Shown here: in pieces, positions 8,965 to 40,997 of the stretch | How positions within the stretch are numbered: the first letter of the stretch is position 1 | Layout of the letters: each line of letters begins with the position of its first letter | DNA from: Sphingobacterium yanglingense | Lineage (GTDB): Bacteria > Bacteroidota > Bacteroidia > Sphingobacteriales > Sphingobacteriaceae | Length of the DNA stretch: 64,000 nucleotides | NCBI RefSeq assembly: GCF_004363245.1 | Contig: NZ_SNYV01000013.1 | Location: 334,939-398,938, forward strand | Direction: 5' to 3' | Notes under the pieces: generated by a model | The model's database searches: none | Told to the model about the DNA's origin: nothing | The model's input: the letters and a program-made list of their open reading frames with translations, nothing else | Position numbers and translations under genes: made by a program

Positions 8965-10671
8965 ATGAAAAAAATATCACGTAAAGAATATGCAAGTTAC
9001 TTTGGTCCTACCACTGGGGACAAGATAAGATTGGCAGATACCGATCTATGGATACAGATTGAGAAGGATTTTACCACCTACGGAGATGAGTTAATTTTCG
9101 GCGGCGGAAAGGTGGTGCGCGATGGCATGGGACAGCATCCAACGGCTTTGCAGGAAGAAGTGTTGGATACAGTAATTACCAATGCGGTCATATTAGATCA
9201 TTGGGGAATTGTAAAGGCGGATATCGGTATCAAGAACGGCAAGATTGCGGGAGTTGGTAAGGCAGGTAACCCCTTGATTATGGATGGAGTGACAAAGGGA
9301 ATGGTTGTAGGAGTGGGGACCGAAGTCGTAGCTGGGGAGAATCTCATCGTGACAGCTGGTACAATCGATACTCATGTACACTATATCTGTCCACAACAGT
9401 TTGATGTTGCACTACAGGCTGGCACAACCACCGTGGTCGGAGGGGGAACAGGTCCAGTGGCTGGTACCTTGGCTACCAACTGTACTTCTGGTGTTTGGAA
9501 TCTGCGAAAAATGGCCCTAGCGACAGATACTATTCCTGTGAATTTTGTGTTTTTAGCTAAAGGAAATAGTTCGAGTAAAACCGCTTTACAGGAATTGATT
9601 GACGCCGGCGCTGGTGGGCTCAAGATTCATGAAGATTGGGGAAGCACGCCATTTGTGCTGAATAATTGTCTTGAGGTCGCCGACCAAGCAGATATACAGG
9701 TATGTATACACACCGATACGCTTAATGAAGCCGGATTTGTTGGAGACTCATTGGCTTCCTTTGCTGGGCGCTCTATCCATACTTATCATACCGAAGGAGC
9801 AGGAGGTGGACACGCTCCAGATTTGTTGAAAGTTGTTGAATACGATAATATTCTGCCGTCATCGACTACGCCTACCAATCCATTTACTATCAATACGATA
9901 GATGAGCATTTGGATATGATGATGATATGTCATCATCTCGATAAGAATATTCCTGAAGACGTTGCTTTTGCTAAGTCGCGTATTCGTGCTCAAACTATTG
10001 CAGCCGAAGGGCTATTGCACGATATGGGAGCTATCTCTATGATGAGTTCGGATTCTCAGGCGATGGGGAGAATAGGTGAAGTGGTGATGCGTACATGGCA
10101 GATTGCCGATAAGATGAAAAAGGATAGAGGTGTGTTGGGGGCTAATAAGCTTAATGATAACTTCAGAGCAAAACGCTATGTGGCAAAATATACGATCAAT
10201 CCGGCAATCACACATGGTATTGCGACTCATGTAGGGTCTATTGAAGTGGGTAAGTTGGCAGATTTGGTATTCTATAAACCGCAGGCTTTTGGTGTCAAAC
10301 CTGAGATGGTGATGAAGGGCGGGATTATTGCTTATGCAGGGATGGGGGATCCAAATGCCTCAATATCTACTCCTCAACCTTATATGTATCGCCCGATGTG
10401 GGGTACGCATGGGCAGGTCGTCGGACAGATTTCAGCACTATTTGTCGCACAATCTGCGATAAATCAAGGTGAACTGGAAGAGCTTGGCGTTAAGAAAATG
10501 CTTGTTGCTGTACAGAATACCCGAAACGTAAAGAAAACAGATCTCATTCATAATGACAGTATGCCTAGCATCGTTATGAATCACAATACCTACGACATCA
10601 GTATTAATGGCGATGTTGTAGCGGTAACACCTTCGGCATTCTTACCGATGGCGCAATTATATATGCTGTAG
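8965..10671 (+). CDS. ureC: Urease alpha (catalytic) subunit
   Basis: A 568-residue amidohydrolase hydrolysing urea to ammonia and carbamate. All active-site residues are present: metal ligands H137 and H139 ([11 protein letters not shown]), carbamylated K220 (GLKIHEDWG), H249, H275 ([12 protein letters not shown]), D363 (SSDSQAMGR), plus H222 and the flap C322-H323 (MICHHLD). Every position is offset by three from the Klebsiella numbering. No ureD, E, F or G follows: a terminator comes 28 bp after the stop, then a Crp/Fnr gene. The C-terminus ends LYML instead of the common LF-x-F-type ending. Either accessory genes are elsewhere or maturation does not need them, as in the iron-type UreA2B2 enzyme of Helicobacter mustelae. 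Confidence 0.95.
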
Positions 10672-37380: not shown

Positions 37381-37863
37381 TTAGATCAATTTCCCCCAGG
37401 GTAGTTGTTGTACAATAGCAAGCGGAATCTGGGAGAATCCAAGCAATGAGTTATTGTCAAGCTTATTATATAAGAGTTTGATGTCTTTTTCTGATGCCAC
37501 ATGCAAGACAAGTAATTTATCCGCTTCTATATTAATAATCTGCGTATTATGAGATCTTAAAATATCTAATGTTTTAAAACTTTCTGAATCAAATTTCATC
37601 TGATAGGTAGCCACTTGGAGTACAGCCCCAAACGATACACTTACATCTAGAATACCGTCGATAGCCTGTATTTGATTAATGAAGGTATCGACATAAAGAC
37701 CTTCGATTTCGATTTCAATAGTGATCAGATTCACATCCTTGACATCGGTTAAGGACTTGGAGATCGTGCACACCTTGTATCCTTTCTGTGAGATGTGTTT
37801 AAGCAGTTGTGCTGTTGTTTCGTCGCTCGAGTTGCAACTGATACTGAATAATTTGCTTGTCAT
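37381..37863 (-). CDS. IlvN-like tandem ACT protein
   Basis: A 160-residue protein that follows the plan of the acetolactate synthase small subunit: an ACT domain (about 1-75, LFSISCNSSDETTAQLLKHI, LITIEIEIEGLYVDTFINQI), then the IlvN-type second domain (KFDSESFKTLDILRSHNTQI, LLYNKLDNNSLLGFSQIPLA). Similarity to canonical IlvN is weak and no ilvB lies nearby. IlvN gives valine feedback control to acetolactate synthase; this could be a second regulatory subunit or a divergent sensor. A terminator stands 21 bp before its start, preceded by a Val/Ile/Leu-rich leader ORF, which independently supports a branched-chain amino acid role. Confidence 0.65.
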   Translation of the reverse strand: MTSKLFSISCNSSDETTAQLLKHISQKGYKVCTISKSLTDVKDVNLITIEIEIEGLYVDTFINQIQAIDGILDVSVSFGAVLQVATYQMKFDSESFKTLDILRSHNTQIINIEADKLLVLHVASEKDIKLLYNKLDNNSLLGFSQIPLAIVQQLPWGKLI

Positions 37864-37883
37864 ATTACTTTTTTTAAATAAAA

Positions 37884-37910
37884 AAGCCCCCCGGTTTTAA
37901 TGGGAGGCTT
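37884..37910 (-). terminator. Attenuator terminator before the IlvN-like gene
   Basis: Read on the minus strand: AAGCCTCCC pairs with GGGGGGCTT (one G-T pair) and is followed by TTTTTTATTT. Its left arm CCTCCCATT (37899-37907) is perfectly complementary to AATGGGAGG near the end of the leader ORF (37951-37959), giving an alternative antiterminator fold. It ends about 20 bp before the start of the gene. Confidence 0.8.
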
Positions 37911-37934
37911 GTGTAGTATATTGTTTAAAAAATA

Positions 37935-38045
37935 TTAAATAATAATTGCTCCTCCCATTTTAATTAAAATGACGACACAGACAGCGACCACAACGACGTT
38001 GAGTGAGGAAAAAATTATATTTAACGCTTGTCTGTTCATTATCAT
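37935..38045 (-). CDS. Branched-chain amino acid leader peptide (attenuator)
   Basis: A 36-codon frame (or 34 from the second ATG at 38039) whose product has 8 Ile, 7 Val and 3 Leu, including the run NVVVVAVCVVILI and the terminal AIII. Such runs are the hallmark of ilv leader peptides. The stop is followed after 24 bp by the terminator hairpin, and the codons for MGG supply the antiterminator strand. The start lies 4 bp after the stop of the M16 peptidase gene. An alternative reading is a small one-helix membrane protein, since the sequence is hydrophobic; the matching hairpins argue for the leader. Confidence 0.7.
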   Translation of the reverse strand: MIMNRQALNIIFSSLNVVVVAVCVVILIKMGGAIII

Positions 38046-38048
38046 ATA

Positions 38049-40997
38049 CTAATAACCAAATATATCGGTAAGACTTAACTTAGTGAGCTTTCCGATGCGG
38101 CTAAGCTGCTCATCGCTTACGTTTTTTTCAGAAGCTACGATACAGTACGTGTATGGCTTATTTGCTAAACCAGCTGCATGTATGGCTTCAATATCCGCAA
38201 ACTGCATGGTTTTTACATTTTCATACCAGCTTTTACGACGGTCGTGCTCCATACCTTTCTTTAAGTTCTGTAAATAGCTGAATACAATACCATCTTTACG
38301 GATACGCTGTGTCTCAATGTCGCTTAAAAAACTTCTTTTTGCGGTTTCGAATGCTTTTTCTGAACGCGGCATAGTATTCAACAGATCGTTCATGCCGTTT
38401 ACTGCATCAAATATTTTATCCGATTGTGTACCGATAAAAGCCGAAGCTTGAAAAGGATCTTCTTTTTTCGAAGGAGTGCTGTACCTAGCGTACGTAGTAT
38501 AGGCTAATCCTTTAGCCTCACGAAGGTTTTGAAAGACCACAGAACCCATACCGCCACCAAAATAACTATTAAACAAAGCAACACCTGCTTCCTTATCGGC
38601 TTGGTAATCTTCACCCTTACGGTACCAGCTGATATCCGCCTGCACCATTTCGTAATTCGCAAACAATACCGTGTTTTCCGATTGTTCTAAACGCGTATAG
38701 CTGCTTTTTGGAGGCATAGCAGCAAATGTTTTTGGTGATTTATAATATTTCGTTAAGGTAGTATTATAGTTCTTTAACTCAAGAGGGCTGTACGCTACGA
38801 TCTTATGTTGATAATCCATCATACCGTGTAAGAGAGCTACTAATTCTTCACCTTTGATTGCCATTATGGCATCGCTTGACAACTGATCATTAAAAGGATT
38901 TTTCGACCCGTAAGTAGCGTAACTCATTAGACCCTGCATAATGTTGCGCTTATTGGTCTTATTATTTTGTCGCTGCTGCATGACGTCGTTTTTAAGATTT
39001 GCCAAAGCAGCTTCATCCACTTTACAGTTTTTCAGTAGATCAGACAATAAAAGCATTGCCTCTCCGTAATTTTCCTGTAATCCCGTTAACGTTATCCGTG
39101 TCTCATCGGTTCCGATATTGATACTATAATCACAAGCTAACTTATAAAAAGCTTCCTGGACCTGTGCCGCTGTCATCTTATCCGTACCCAGGTAAGAAAG
39201 ATAATTACCTGCTAAAGGCAATAACTTTTGATTCCAGCTTCCCATATCAAAAAGAAAGGTCTGGCGGAATAACTGATTGTCTTTGTTCTGTATGTATAGT
39301 ACTTCCGTTTGTCCTGATTTGCTGTGTTCAATATCACGTTTGTAATCCAACCACTCCGGTGAAACAGGTAGGGAAGGCATGGCCGCGATCTCCGCAAGGT
39401 ACGTAGATTGTTTATCAGCATTCGTCTTTACAGGTGTGATCGGTGGTTTTTCCACTTTTGCAATAGCGTCCGGCTGGCCTTGTTTCTTGTTCACGACAAT
39501 GTAATTGTCCTGAAAGAAATCATTCGCAAACTTAACAATCTCCGCTTTCGTAACTTTAGATAGGATATCTAGGTATGTTACCTGCTGGTCCCATCCTGCG
39601 CTCTTGGTACGGATAAAATCGGTTACCAGATTTTCGGTACGCTCTTTATTACTATCCAAGCCTTGGAGATAAGCAAATGTTGCATTAGCGCGGATAGCAT
39701 TGATCAAATCCTCGTCAAACTCACCCCTTTTTAATAACGCCAGTTGCTCCAGTAGCAATGCGCGTACTTCCTCTAGCGTCTGTCCTTGTTTCGGATAGCC
39801 ATAGAGCATAAAGAAACCATAATCCTTTTGCTGGTTTATGTTCGTCCCTGCCGCCAACACCCGTTGTTTCTGCGTTAGATTCAAGTCGATTAAGCCCGCT
39901 TTACCGTTAGACAGAATTGCACCGACCACATCAGCTAACAAAGCTTCGCGGCTGTCGCTTTTACCAACACGGTAGCCCATCATCATATACTGCGCACGAG
40001 GACCGGATACTTCTAAAGTTTGGGATTTTTGTATAGGCTGCTCTTTTACGTCGCTATCGGCAACTGCAGTTCCGGCACGAAAGTTTCCGAAATTTGCATC
40101 TACCTTCTTAATAATCTCATCAGAGTTAAAATCACCTGCTAATACAATAGCCATATTATTGGCTACATAATACTGATCATAAAAAGAACGGATTACTTTT
40201 AGAGAAGGGTTCTTCAGATGTTCCACGGTACCTAATGTCGTTTGCTGTCCGTAATTGGTTTTCGGAAATAAAGCCTGCAGCAAAGCTTCAGAGGCACGGT
40301 TGCCATCGTTGTCCAGACTCATGTTTTTTTCCTCGTACACGGTCTCCAGTTCGGTATGGAAGAGCCTAAATACAGGATAACGAAAACGCTCGGCTTGGAT
40401 CAATAAGAACTTATCGATCGAGCTCGAGGGAATGTCCTCTTTATAGATGGTCTCGTTAAACCAGGTATGTGCGTTGGTATTCTGCGAACCAATATTAGAC
40501 ATCAATTTGTCGTACTCGTTGGCGATGGAATAGGTAGAAGCTTCTCCCGACAGACGGTCTATTTCTTGATAGATGGACTTCCGCTTAGTAACATCCGTTT
40601 CCTTCGTATACGTTTCGTAAAGATCTTCTATTTGATCAAGTAGTACCTTCTCTTTATTCCAGTCTGACGTGCCAAATTTGCTCGTTCCCTTAAAAAGAAG
40701 GTGCTCCAGATAGTGTGCTAAACCAGTATGTGTTGATGGATCATTATTGCTTCCGGCACGTACCGCAATTTGTGCAGTAATGCGCGGCTCGTTTTTGTTT
40801 TCCGTCAGGATAACCGTCATTCCATTCTTAAGGGTGTAAAAACGGCTATTCATCGGGTCATTGCTTACGTAACGATAGCTATAACCACCTGATTGGCCTT
40901 CTTTCCAGCTATGCTTCTCTTGCGCCTGTACCGAAGATACTACACTAAGCCCGATGAAAAGCGTGAGCATCCGCAGGATAATCGTTTGTTTTATCAT
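38049..40997 (-). CDS. M16 family zinc peptidase, full-length
   Basis: A 982-residue secreted or periplasmic insulinase-type metallopeptidase. After a signal peptide (LTLFIGLSVVSSVQA) the active half has H95-x-x-E98-H99 in AHYLEHLLFKG and the distal glutamate in ELETVYEEKNM. The second M16 half, inactive, carries GGGMGSVVFQNLREAKGLAY. Two M16 units on one chain form the closed chamber typical of pitrilysin-type enzymes. It degrades peptides. The last codons contain a possible -7 element for the downstream leader RNA. Confidence 0.93.
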   Translation of the reverse strand: MIKQTIILRMLTLFIGLSVVSSVQAQEKHSWKEGQSGGYSYRYVSNDPMNSRFYTLKNGMTVILTENKNEPRITAQIAVRAGSNNDPSTHTGLAHYLEHLLFKGTSKFGTSDWNKEKVLLDQIEDLYETYTKETDVTKRKSIYQEIDRLSGEASTYSIANEYDKLMSNIGSQNTNAHTWFNETIYKEDIPSSSIDKFLLIQAERFRYPVFRLFHTELETVYEEKNMSLDNDGNRASEALLQALFPKTNYGQQTTLGTVEHLKNPSLKVIRSFYDQYYVANNMAIVLAGDFNSDEIIKKVDANFGNFRAGTAVADSDVKEQPIQKSQTLEVSGPRAQYMMMGYRVGKSDSREALLADVVGAILSNGKAGLIDLNLTQKQRVLAAGTNINQQKDYGFFMLYGYPKQGQTLEEVRALLLEQLALLKRGEFDEDLINAIRANATFAYLQGLDSNKERTENLVTDFIRTKSAGWDQQVTYLDILSKVTKAEIVKFANDFFQDNYIVVNKKQGQPDAIAKVEKPPITPVKTNADKQSTYLAEIAAMPSLPVSPEWLDYKRDIEHSKSGQTEVLYIQNKDNQLFRQTFLFDMGSWNQKLLPLAGNYLSYLGTDKMTAAQVQEAFYKLACDYSINIGTDETRITLTGLQENYGEAMLLLSDLLKNCKVDEAALANLKNDVMQQRQNNKTNKRNIMQGLMSYATYGSKNPFNDQLSSDAIMAIKGEELVALLHGMMDYQHKIVAYSPLELKNYNTTLTKYYKSPKTFAAMPPKSSYTRLEQSENTVLFANYEMVQADISWYRKGEDYQADKEAGVALFNSYFGGGMGSVVFQNLREAKGLAYTTYARYSTPSKKEDPFQASAFIGTQSDKIFDAVNGMNDLLNTMPRSEKAFETAKRSFLSDIETQRIRKDGIVFSYLQNLKKGMEHDRRKSWYENVKTMQFADIEAIHAAGLANKPYTYCIVASEKNVSDEQLSRIGKLTKLSLTDIFGY
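38057..38064 (-). promoter_or_regulatory. Candidate -7 element for the attenuator leader RNA
   Basis: On the minus strand TATATTTG (TANNTTTG) lies inside the last codons of the M16 peptidase gene, about 12 bp before the leader ORF start. No clear -33 element was seen. If it is not used, the leader would be reached by read-through from the peptidase gene. Confidence 0.35.

Follow-up and report, generated by a model that had tools for sequence, protein, structure and literature searches.

Upstream of a free-standing gene for an IlvN/IlvH-like protein in Sphingobacterium yanglingense lie a short open reading frame (ORF) crowded with branched-chain amino acid codons and a hairpin followed by a T-run. 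The locus, on the minus strand of a 64,000-nucleotide stretch (NZ_SNYV01000013.1, positions 334,939 to 398,938; the window hereafter), raises the question of what this arrangement senses and what it controls. Peptide-leader attenuation is textbook knowledge for enterobacterial ilv operons, and comparison across the Sphingobacteriaceae indicates that the element is, very probably, a classical transcription attenuator of this kind, sensing charged tRNA-Ile and tRNA-Val. Its parts, in window coordinates, are as follows.

38057..38064, minus strand: putative -7 promoter box of Bacteroidota type, TATATTTG, within the last codons of the M16 peptidase gene, at its 3' end
37935..38045, minus strand: leader frame from the first in-frame ATG, MIMNRQALNIIFSSLNVVVVAVCVVILIKMGGAIII, 36 codons, 18 of them Ile, Val or Leu
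37935..38039, minus strand: leader ORF, MNRQALNIIFSSLNVVVVAVCVVILIKMGGAIII, 34 codons and stop
37962..37997, minus strand: regulatory Val/Ile/Leu codon run, VVVVAVCVVILI, leader codons 15-26
37966..37971, minus strand: candidate region 1, CATTTT, pairing with AAAATG in arm 2 (protector hairpin)
37951..37959, minus strand: region 2 (arm 2), antiterminator 5' arm, AATGGGAGG, within the leader ORF
37899..37910, minus strand: region 3 (arm 3), AAGCCTCCCATT, comprising antiterminator 3' arm CCTCCCATT and terminator 5' arm AAGCCTCCC
37880..37892, minus strand: region 4, terminator 3' arm GGGGGGCTT and T-run, covarying with region 3
37381..37863, minus strand: free-standing IlvN/IlvH-like gene, 160 aa, predicted paralogue of the acetohydroxyacid synthase (AHAS) regulatory subunit

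The leader ORF lies immediately behind the M16 peptidase gene. A first-pass annotation, made from the window alone, had described a 36-codon frame with 18 Ile/Val/Leu codons; that frame is present (38045..37935), but comparison with the leaders of relatives (MKRQ.., MRRQ..) favours the second ATG, at 38039, as the start, giving 34 codons. The ORF ends 24 nt ahead of the terminator and its T-run, as annotated, and AATGGGAGG (37959..37951) is the exact complement of CCTCCCATT (37907..37899), bearing out the claim that the left strand of the terminator can also pair inside the leader ORF. The terminator hairpin, AAGCCTCCC / GGGGGGCTT, has a folding energy of -15.1 kcal/mol and was overlooked by a simple terminator scan because its loop is 9 nt. 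At this single locus, the arm-pairing energy is matched by shuffles of codon order in the leader tail with p = 0.01.

Comparison among relatives carries the case. Leader ORF, codon run, arms, and terminator precede 34 of the 42 intact homologues found in Sphingobacteriaceae; within the leader-bearing clades, all 34 intact genes have the ORF, the run, and the terminator, with a stop-to-terminator gap of 22-35 nt. The arms differ jointly between clades (ATGGGAGG/CCTCCCAT, TGGAGGG/CCCTCC, CCGGGAG/CTCCCGG, AGGGAAGG/CCTTCCCT, and AATCCGGG/CCCGGATT), and the arm 2/arm 3 pair of each clade comes with a matching region 4. Across 23 representatives, the mean energy of cognate arm 2:arm 3 pairing is -16.0 kcal/mol, compared with -12.3 (sd 0.57) for permuted pairings, and none of 20,000 permutations is as good. 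Counting pairs on the alignment, we find 36 antiterminator cells and 24 terminator cells with double changes, numbers that none of 500 shuffles reaches in either case and that lie far above slid controls; the MAFFT alignment places the antiterminator of the CCGGGAG clade out of register by one, so these counts understate the covariation and the alignment-free permutation serves as the main test. At two loci (L007 and L008) the arm AAAATGGGAGG is retained in a different reading frame (..SKWEVNTL versus ..KMGGxITI) while the Val/Ile run is kept, which indicates that the RNA, not the peptide, is conserved. The alignment of orthologues proposed as a check on the annotation thus finds codon bias and complementary arms retained, with compensating changes in both hairpins; sequence evolution strongly supports the leader ORF, codon run, arms, and terminator as a covarying whole.

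The composition of the run points to the amino acids sensed. In the 14 codons preceding arm 2 at 23 loci, Ile makes up 31%, Val 21%, and Leu 15%, against a background in the window genes of 6.5%, 6.3%, and 9.8%, respectively; at the same loci Ile and Val are concentrated 3-12 codons upstream of the arm. Codon choice there is biased, with ATT accounting for 86% of Ile and GTC for 57% of Val. This enrichment makes Ile and Val better-supported signals than Leu; of the Val/Ile/Leu signal first proposed, the Ile/Val part stands, and Leu is only a minor part of the run.

A box of the form TAnnTT(T)G lies 4-16 nt ahead of the leader ATG at 19 of 34 loci (1.1 in shuffles); a -7 box consensus for Bacteroidota is reported in PMC9723704. 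With this spacing the leader mRNA would probably begin within a few bases of the ATG and have nearly no 5' untranslated region (UTR). In the proposed mechanism, transcription would start at that point, and a ribosome supplied with sufficient Ile and Val would reach the leader stop and cover region 2, leaving regions 3 and 4 to form the terminator, so that RNA polymerase halts before the gene. Under Ile or Val shortage, the ribosome would stall in the run, 3-12 codons ahead of region 2; region 2 would then be free to pair with region 3 ahead of the synthesis of region 4, and the polymerase would read through into the IlvN-like gene. Ribosome stalling, readthrough, and start site are what we infer. 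The geometry suits a stalled ribosome that frees region 2 and a ribosome at the stop that covers it: the run precedes arm 2 by the same 3-12 codons, arm 2 ends no more than 15 nt from the ORF end, and arm 3 starts 22-35 nt past the stop.

Partition-function folds in which the ribosome footprint is masked, with the stall placed six codons before arm 2, bear out part of the predicted alternative folding: in the absence of region 4, the 2:3 pairing has a mean probability of 0.84 with a stalled ribosome and 0 with the ribosome at the stop. Several observations weigh against the attenuator. In the full RNA at equilibrium with the ribosome stalled, the terminator (0.82) prevails over the antiterminator (0.12), as it does in most loci, and whole-leader equilibrium folding alone does not show a switch. 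Since equilibrium favours the terminator, the switch must act co-transcriptionally, through kinetics; the preference reflects either a shortcoming of the model or a real role for timing. The protector hairpin 1:2 is clear in Sphingobacterium, L007, L049, and the TGGAGGG group but has weak pair statistics over all loci, and at L087 and L130 arms 2 and 3 pair weakly. Finally, a similar-looking ilvB leader in Streptomyces coelicolor is reported not to respond to changes in its regulatory codons and not to be a classical attenuator (PMC1262725).

Other explanations of the leader were weighed. The ORF could encode a real one-helix membrane microprotein, the hairpin serving only to terminate transcription before the following gene: the peptide is hydrophobic, and the closest copies (L001-L006 and L010) resemble one another strongly in its sequence. 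Most other leaders, however, share only the Ile/Val run, the ORF tail covaries with the terminator, and the distance from run to arm 2 is fixed. In Sphingobacterium, moreover, synonymous codons within the run are frozen (101 of 112 identical, ~90%), whereas identity in the gene is mostly 0.39-0.51 (~45%). On these frozen sites and the frame shift within the conserved arm of L007/L008, the microprotein reading is rejected as extremely improbable; the conserved membrane protein that the first-pass annotation had named as its refuting case is not what the relatives encode. Scarcely more probable is attenuation without amino acid specificity, in which the leader reports translation speed, start efficiency, or RNA polymerase coupling (ermC-like or Rho-type) and the hydrophobic codons carry no signal. 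The almost absent 5' UTR means that start efficiency could matter, and the equilibrium fold without a ribosome favours termination; against this, a real intrinsic terminator is present at all loci and the codons of the run match the target, Ile/Val ahead of ilv-type genes and ileS but Thr/Ile ahead of thrA. Attenuation by charged tRNA-Ile and tRNA-Val is thus preferred for the leader, and the more serious competitor concerns the gene behind it.

That competitor accepts the attenuator as described but makes the product a branched-chain amino acid-binding ACT protein with another partner, such as a modulator of ThrA, LeuA, or a tRNA synthetase. By profile the window protein is near the AHAS small subunits but below the curated IlvN/IlvH cut-offs (TIGR00119, 12 bits against a cut-off of 56.9, relatives up to 51.4; PRK11895, 13.8 against 119, relatives up to 61.6), with a weak match to the IlvM profile. 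The lone gene is not adjacent to ilvB; its surroundings vary, with ileS among the neighbours and, in convergent orientation, genes for aspartokinase and Lrp/AsnC, and canonical IlvN is retained in all genomes checked. In the tree the lone proteins form a well supported branch separate from IlvH/IlvN. They nevertheless resemble IlvH/IlvN (PDB 2f1f, 2fgc, and 2pc6) and IlvM in combining an ACT and a C-terminal domain at full length: a PDB profile search and an AlphaFold2 model (pLDDT 86.6) match IlvH over both domains (the second ferredoxin-like), the best PDB match being IlvH 2f1f (TM 0.71-0.74). The annotation of a lone ACT-domain gene holds as to its IlvN-like character, but the product has both IlvH domains and is a predicted AHAS regulatory-subunit paralogue. 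A different partner is possible and deserves serious consideration, short of being the favoured view.

If the product does act on AHAS, it may do so differently from canonical IlvN. Published work connects positions N11, G14, and N29 of IlvH with inhibition by valine (PMC11893703, PMC13158618); there the residues are S, E, and K in the window protein and N, G, and N in the canonical IlvN of the same genome. At position 14, all eight aligned Sphingobacterium copies carry Glu or Asp in place of the Gly of canonical IlvN, but Gly is kept in 21 copies with a DKKG-like motif and in L050 and L051, so valine insensitivity is proposed for Sphingobacterium only. With less certainty than for the leader, the lone product may be read as a second AHAS regulatory subunit, probably valine-insensitive in Sphingobacterium, that would sustain AHAS activity under Ile or Leu shortage. 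The canonical ilvE-D-B-N-C operon lies at a separate site in the same genome, and no leader of the attenuator type is seen upstream of its ilvE; an attenuator on this operon was accordingly rejected. Tentatively, then, and with rather more doubt than confidence, the Sphingobacterium ilv operon may be unattenuated, Ile/Val starvation being relayed to AHAS through an on-demand second regulatory subunit that is insensitive to valine.

The gene itself is sporadic: among 94 genomes of the genus 8 carry it, and among 400 of the family about 40 do. S. yanglingense has a further copy (59% identity), which is preceded by a leader as well. The eight homologues that lack a leader (L066 and L132-L138) form one sister clade (support 87/70); their proteins mostly end ..LAA and they stand in other gene contexts, L066 following a cysteine synthase gene. 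The presence or absence of the leader requires two changes on the tree, whose deep forks are weak, and both one origin with one loss and two gains are possible. In genome G044 an orthologous M16 gene (75%) is followed by different sequence, with neither leader nor IlvN-like gene. Decay is seen elsewhere: at L207 (G024:C12:15835-15957) the leader is intact and the gene is broken after ~25 codons, and at L009 (G034) both have decayed.

A search of the same genome and the family with an RNA model of the leader indicates that the locus does not stand alone. In S. yanglingense the model recovers both known copies and a Thr/Ile leader ahead of thrA. Among 19 matches inspected in the family, with target genes named from reading translations, not from a family search, 11 lie before thrA-like genes, 3 before ilvD, 2 before ilvE, and 1 before ileS; of the other two, one precedes the decayed lone gene in G024 and one is unconvincing. 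Leaders ahead of thrA, ilvD, ilvE, and ileS make attenuation a general habit of Sphingobacteriaceae, with the lone IlvN-like gene as one target.

The Thr/Ile leader of S. yanglingense (L217, G000:C4:190067-190190, minus strand, outside the window), MFLSTIISTTIITTGIDSGGSSSMVK, carries both antiterminator and terminator arms and precedes an aspartokinase gene that resembles thrA; at least 10 further genomes in the family have similar leaders. At two loci (L053 and L061) a leader is followed by the lone gene and then ileS, and at L200 (G232:C12:140497-140604, minus strand) the same Ile-rich leader lies directly ahead of ileS and the IlvN-like gene is absent. In genus g14 the canonical operon has Ile/Val leaders (L204, L205, L210, and L213) ahead of ilvE and ilvD; at L205 a single operon carries two attenuators, one at each of these genes. 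R1 matches L163, L164, L166, L167, L169, L170, and L215 look like ordinary terminators and were set aside. An Rfam search has no match at the attenuator locus; elsewhere in the window, at 9120-9409 on the minus strand, it matches the 5' ureB sRNA (RF02514; 82.8 bits, gathering 40), a match that could reflect conserved urease coding sequence read in antisense instead of an RNA gene.

Among known systems, the locus is closest in logic to E. coli ilvBN (leader ivbL) and ilvGMEDA (leader ilvL), in which a Val/Ile/Leu-rich leader with region 2 in or near the end of the ORF and competing 2:3 and 3:4 pairings precedes an AHAS gene. The E. coli leaders control a whole enzyme operon, whereas the Sphingobacterium leader would control only a free-standing regulatory-subunit paralogue; it also has no sequence relation to them, a nearly absent 5' UTR, and a run in which Leu is minor. 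The thrA leaders of the family (L201-L203, L206, L208, L209, L211, L212, L214, L216, and L217) follow the logic of E. coli thrL (Thr/Ile) but differ in phylum and sequence and are known here as relatives of the studied attenuator. In Actinobacteria, leader ORFs precede ilvB and attenuation is predicted (PMC1262725); these, like the Corynebacterium ilvBNC attenuator (PMC11857589), combine an Ile/Val/Leu ORF and a terminator before AHAS genes, but control ilvB operons, not a lone subunit. Within the same phylum, the Flavobacterium psychrophilum transcriptome is reported to give strong clues of leader-peptide attenuation upstream of amino acid operons (PMC9723704), so attenuation in Bacteroidota had been proposed before; the main text of that study names no lone IlvN-like target. 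A literature search found no paper on the locus or its target, though prior mention in a 2010 comparative study of attenuation (doi 10.1134/S0026893310010164) is possible. Peptide-leader attenuation is a known device; what is new is its connection to a lone regulatory subunit.

The findings give strong comparative evidence for ribosome-mediated attenuation in the Sphingobacteriaceae, a family of Bacteroidota for which little has been described, and suggest a regulon spanning the family (thrA, ilvE, ilvD, ileS, and the lone IlvN-like gene), which a single RNA model can be used to search. The near-leaderless leader ORFs bear on how translation starts in Bacteroidota without a Shine-Dalgarno sequence while coupled to transcription. 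The unusual wiring, a starvation switch on a spare regulatory subunit, makes a precise prediction on the valine sensitivity of AHAS; if the proposed relay is true, the attenuator would govern the allostery of a constitutive enzyme instead of its amount.

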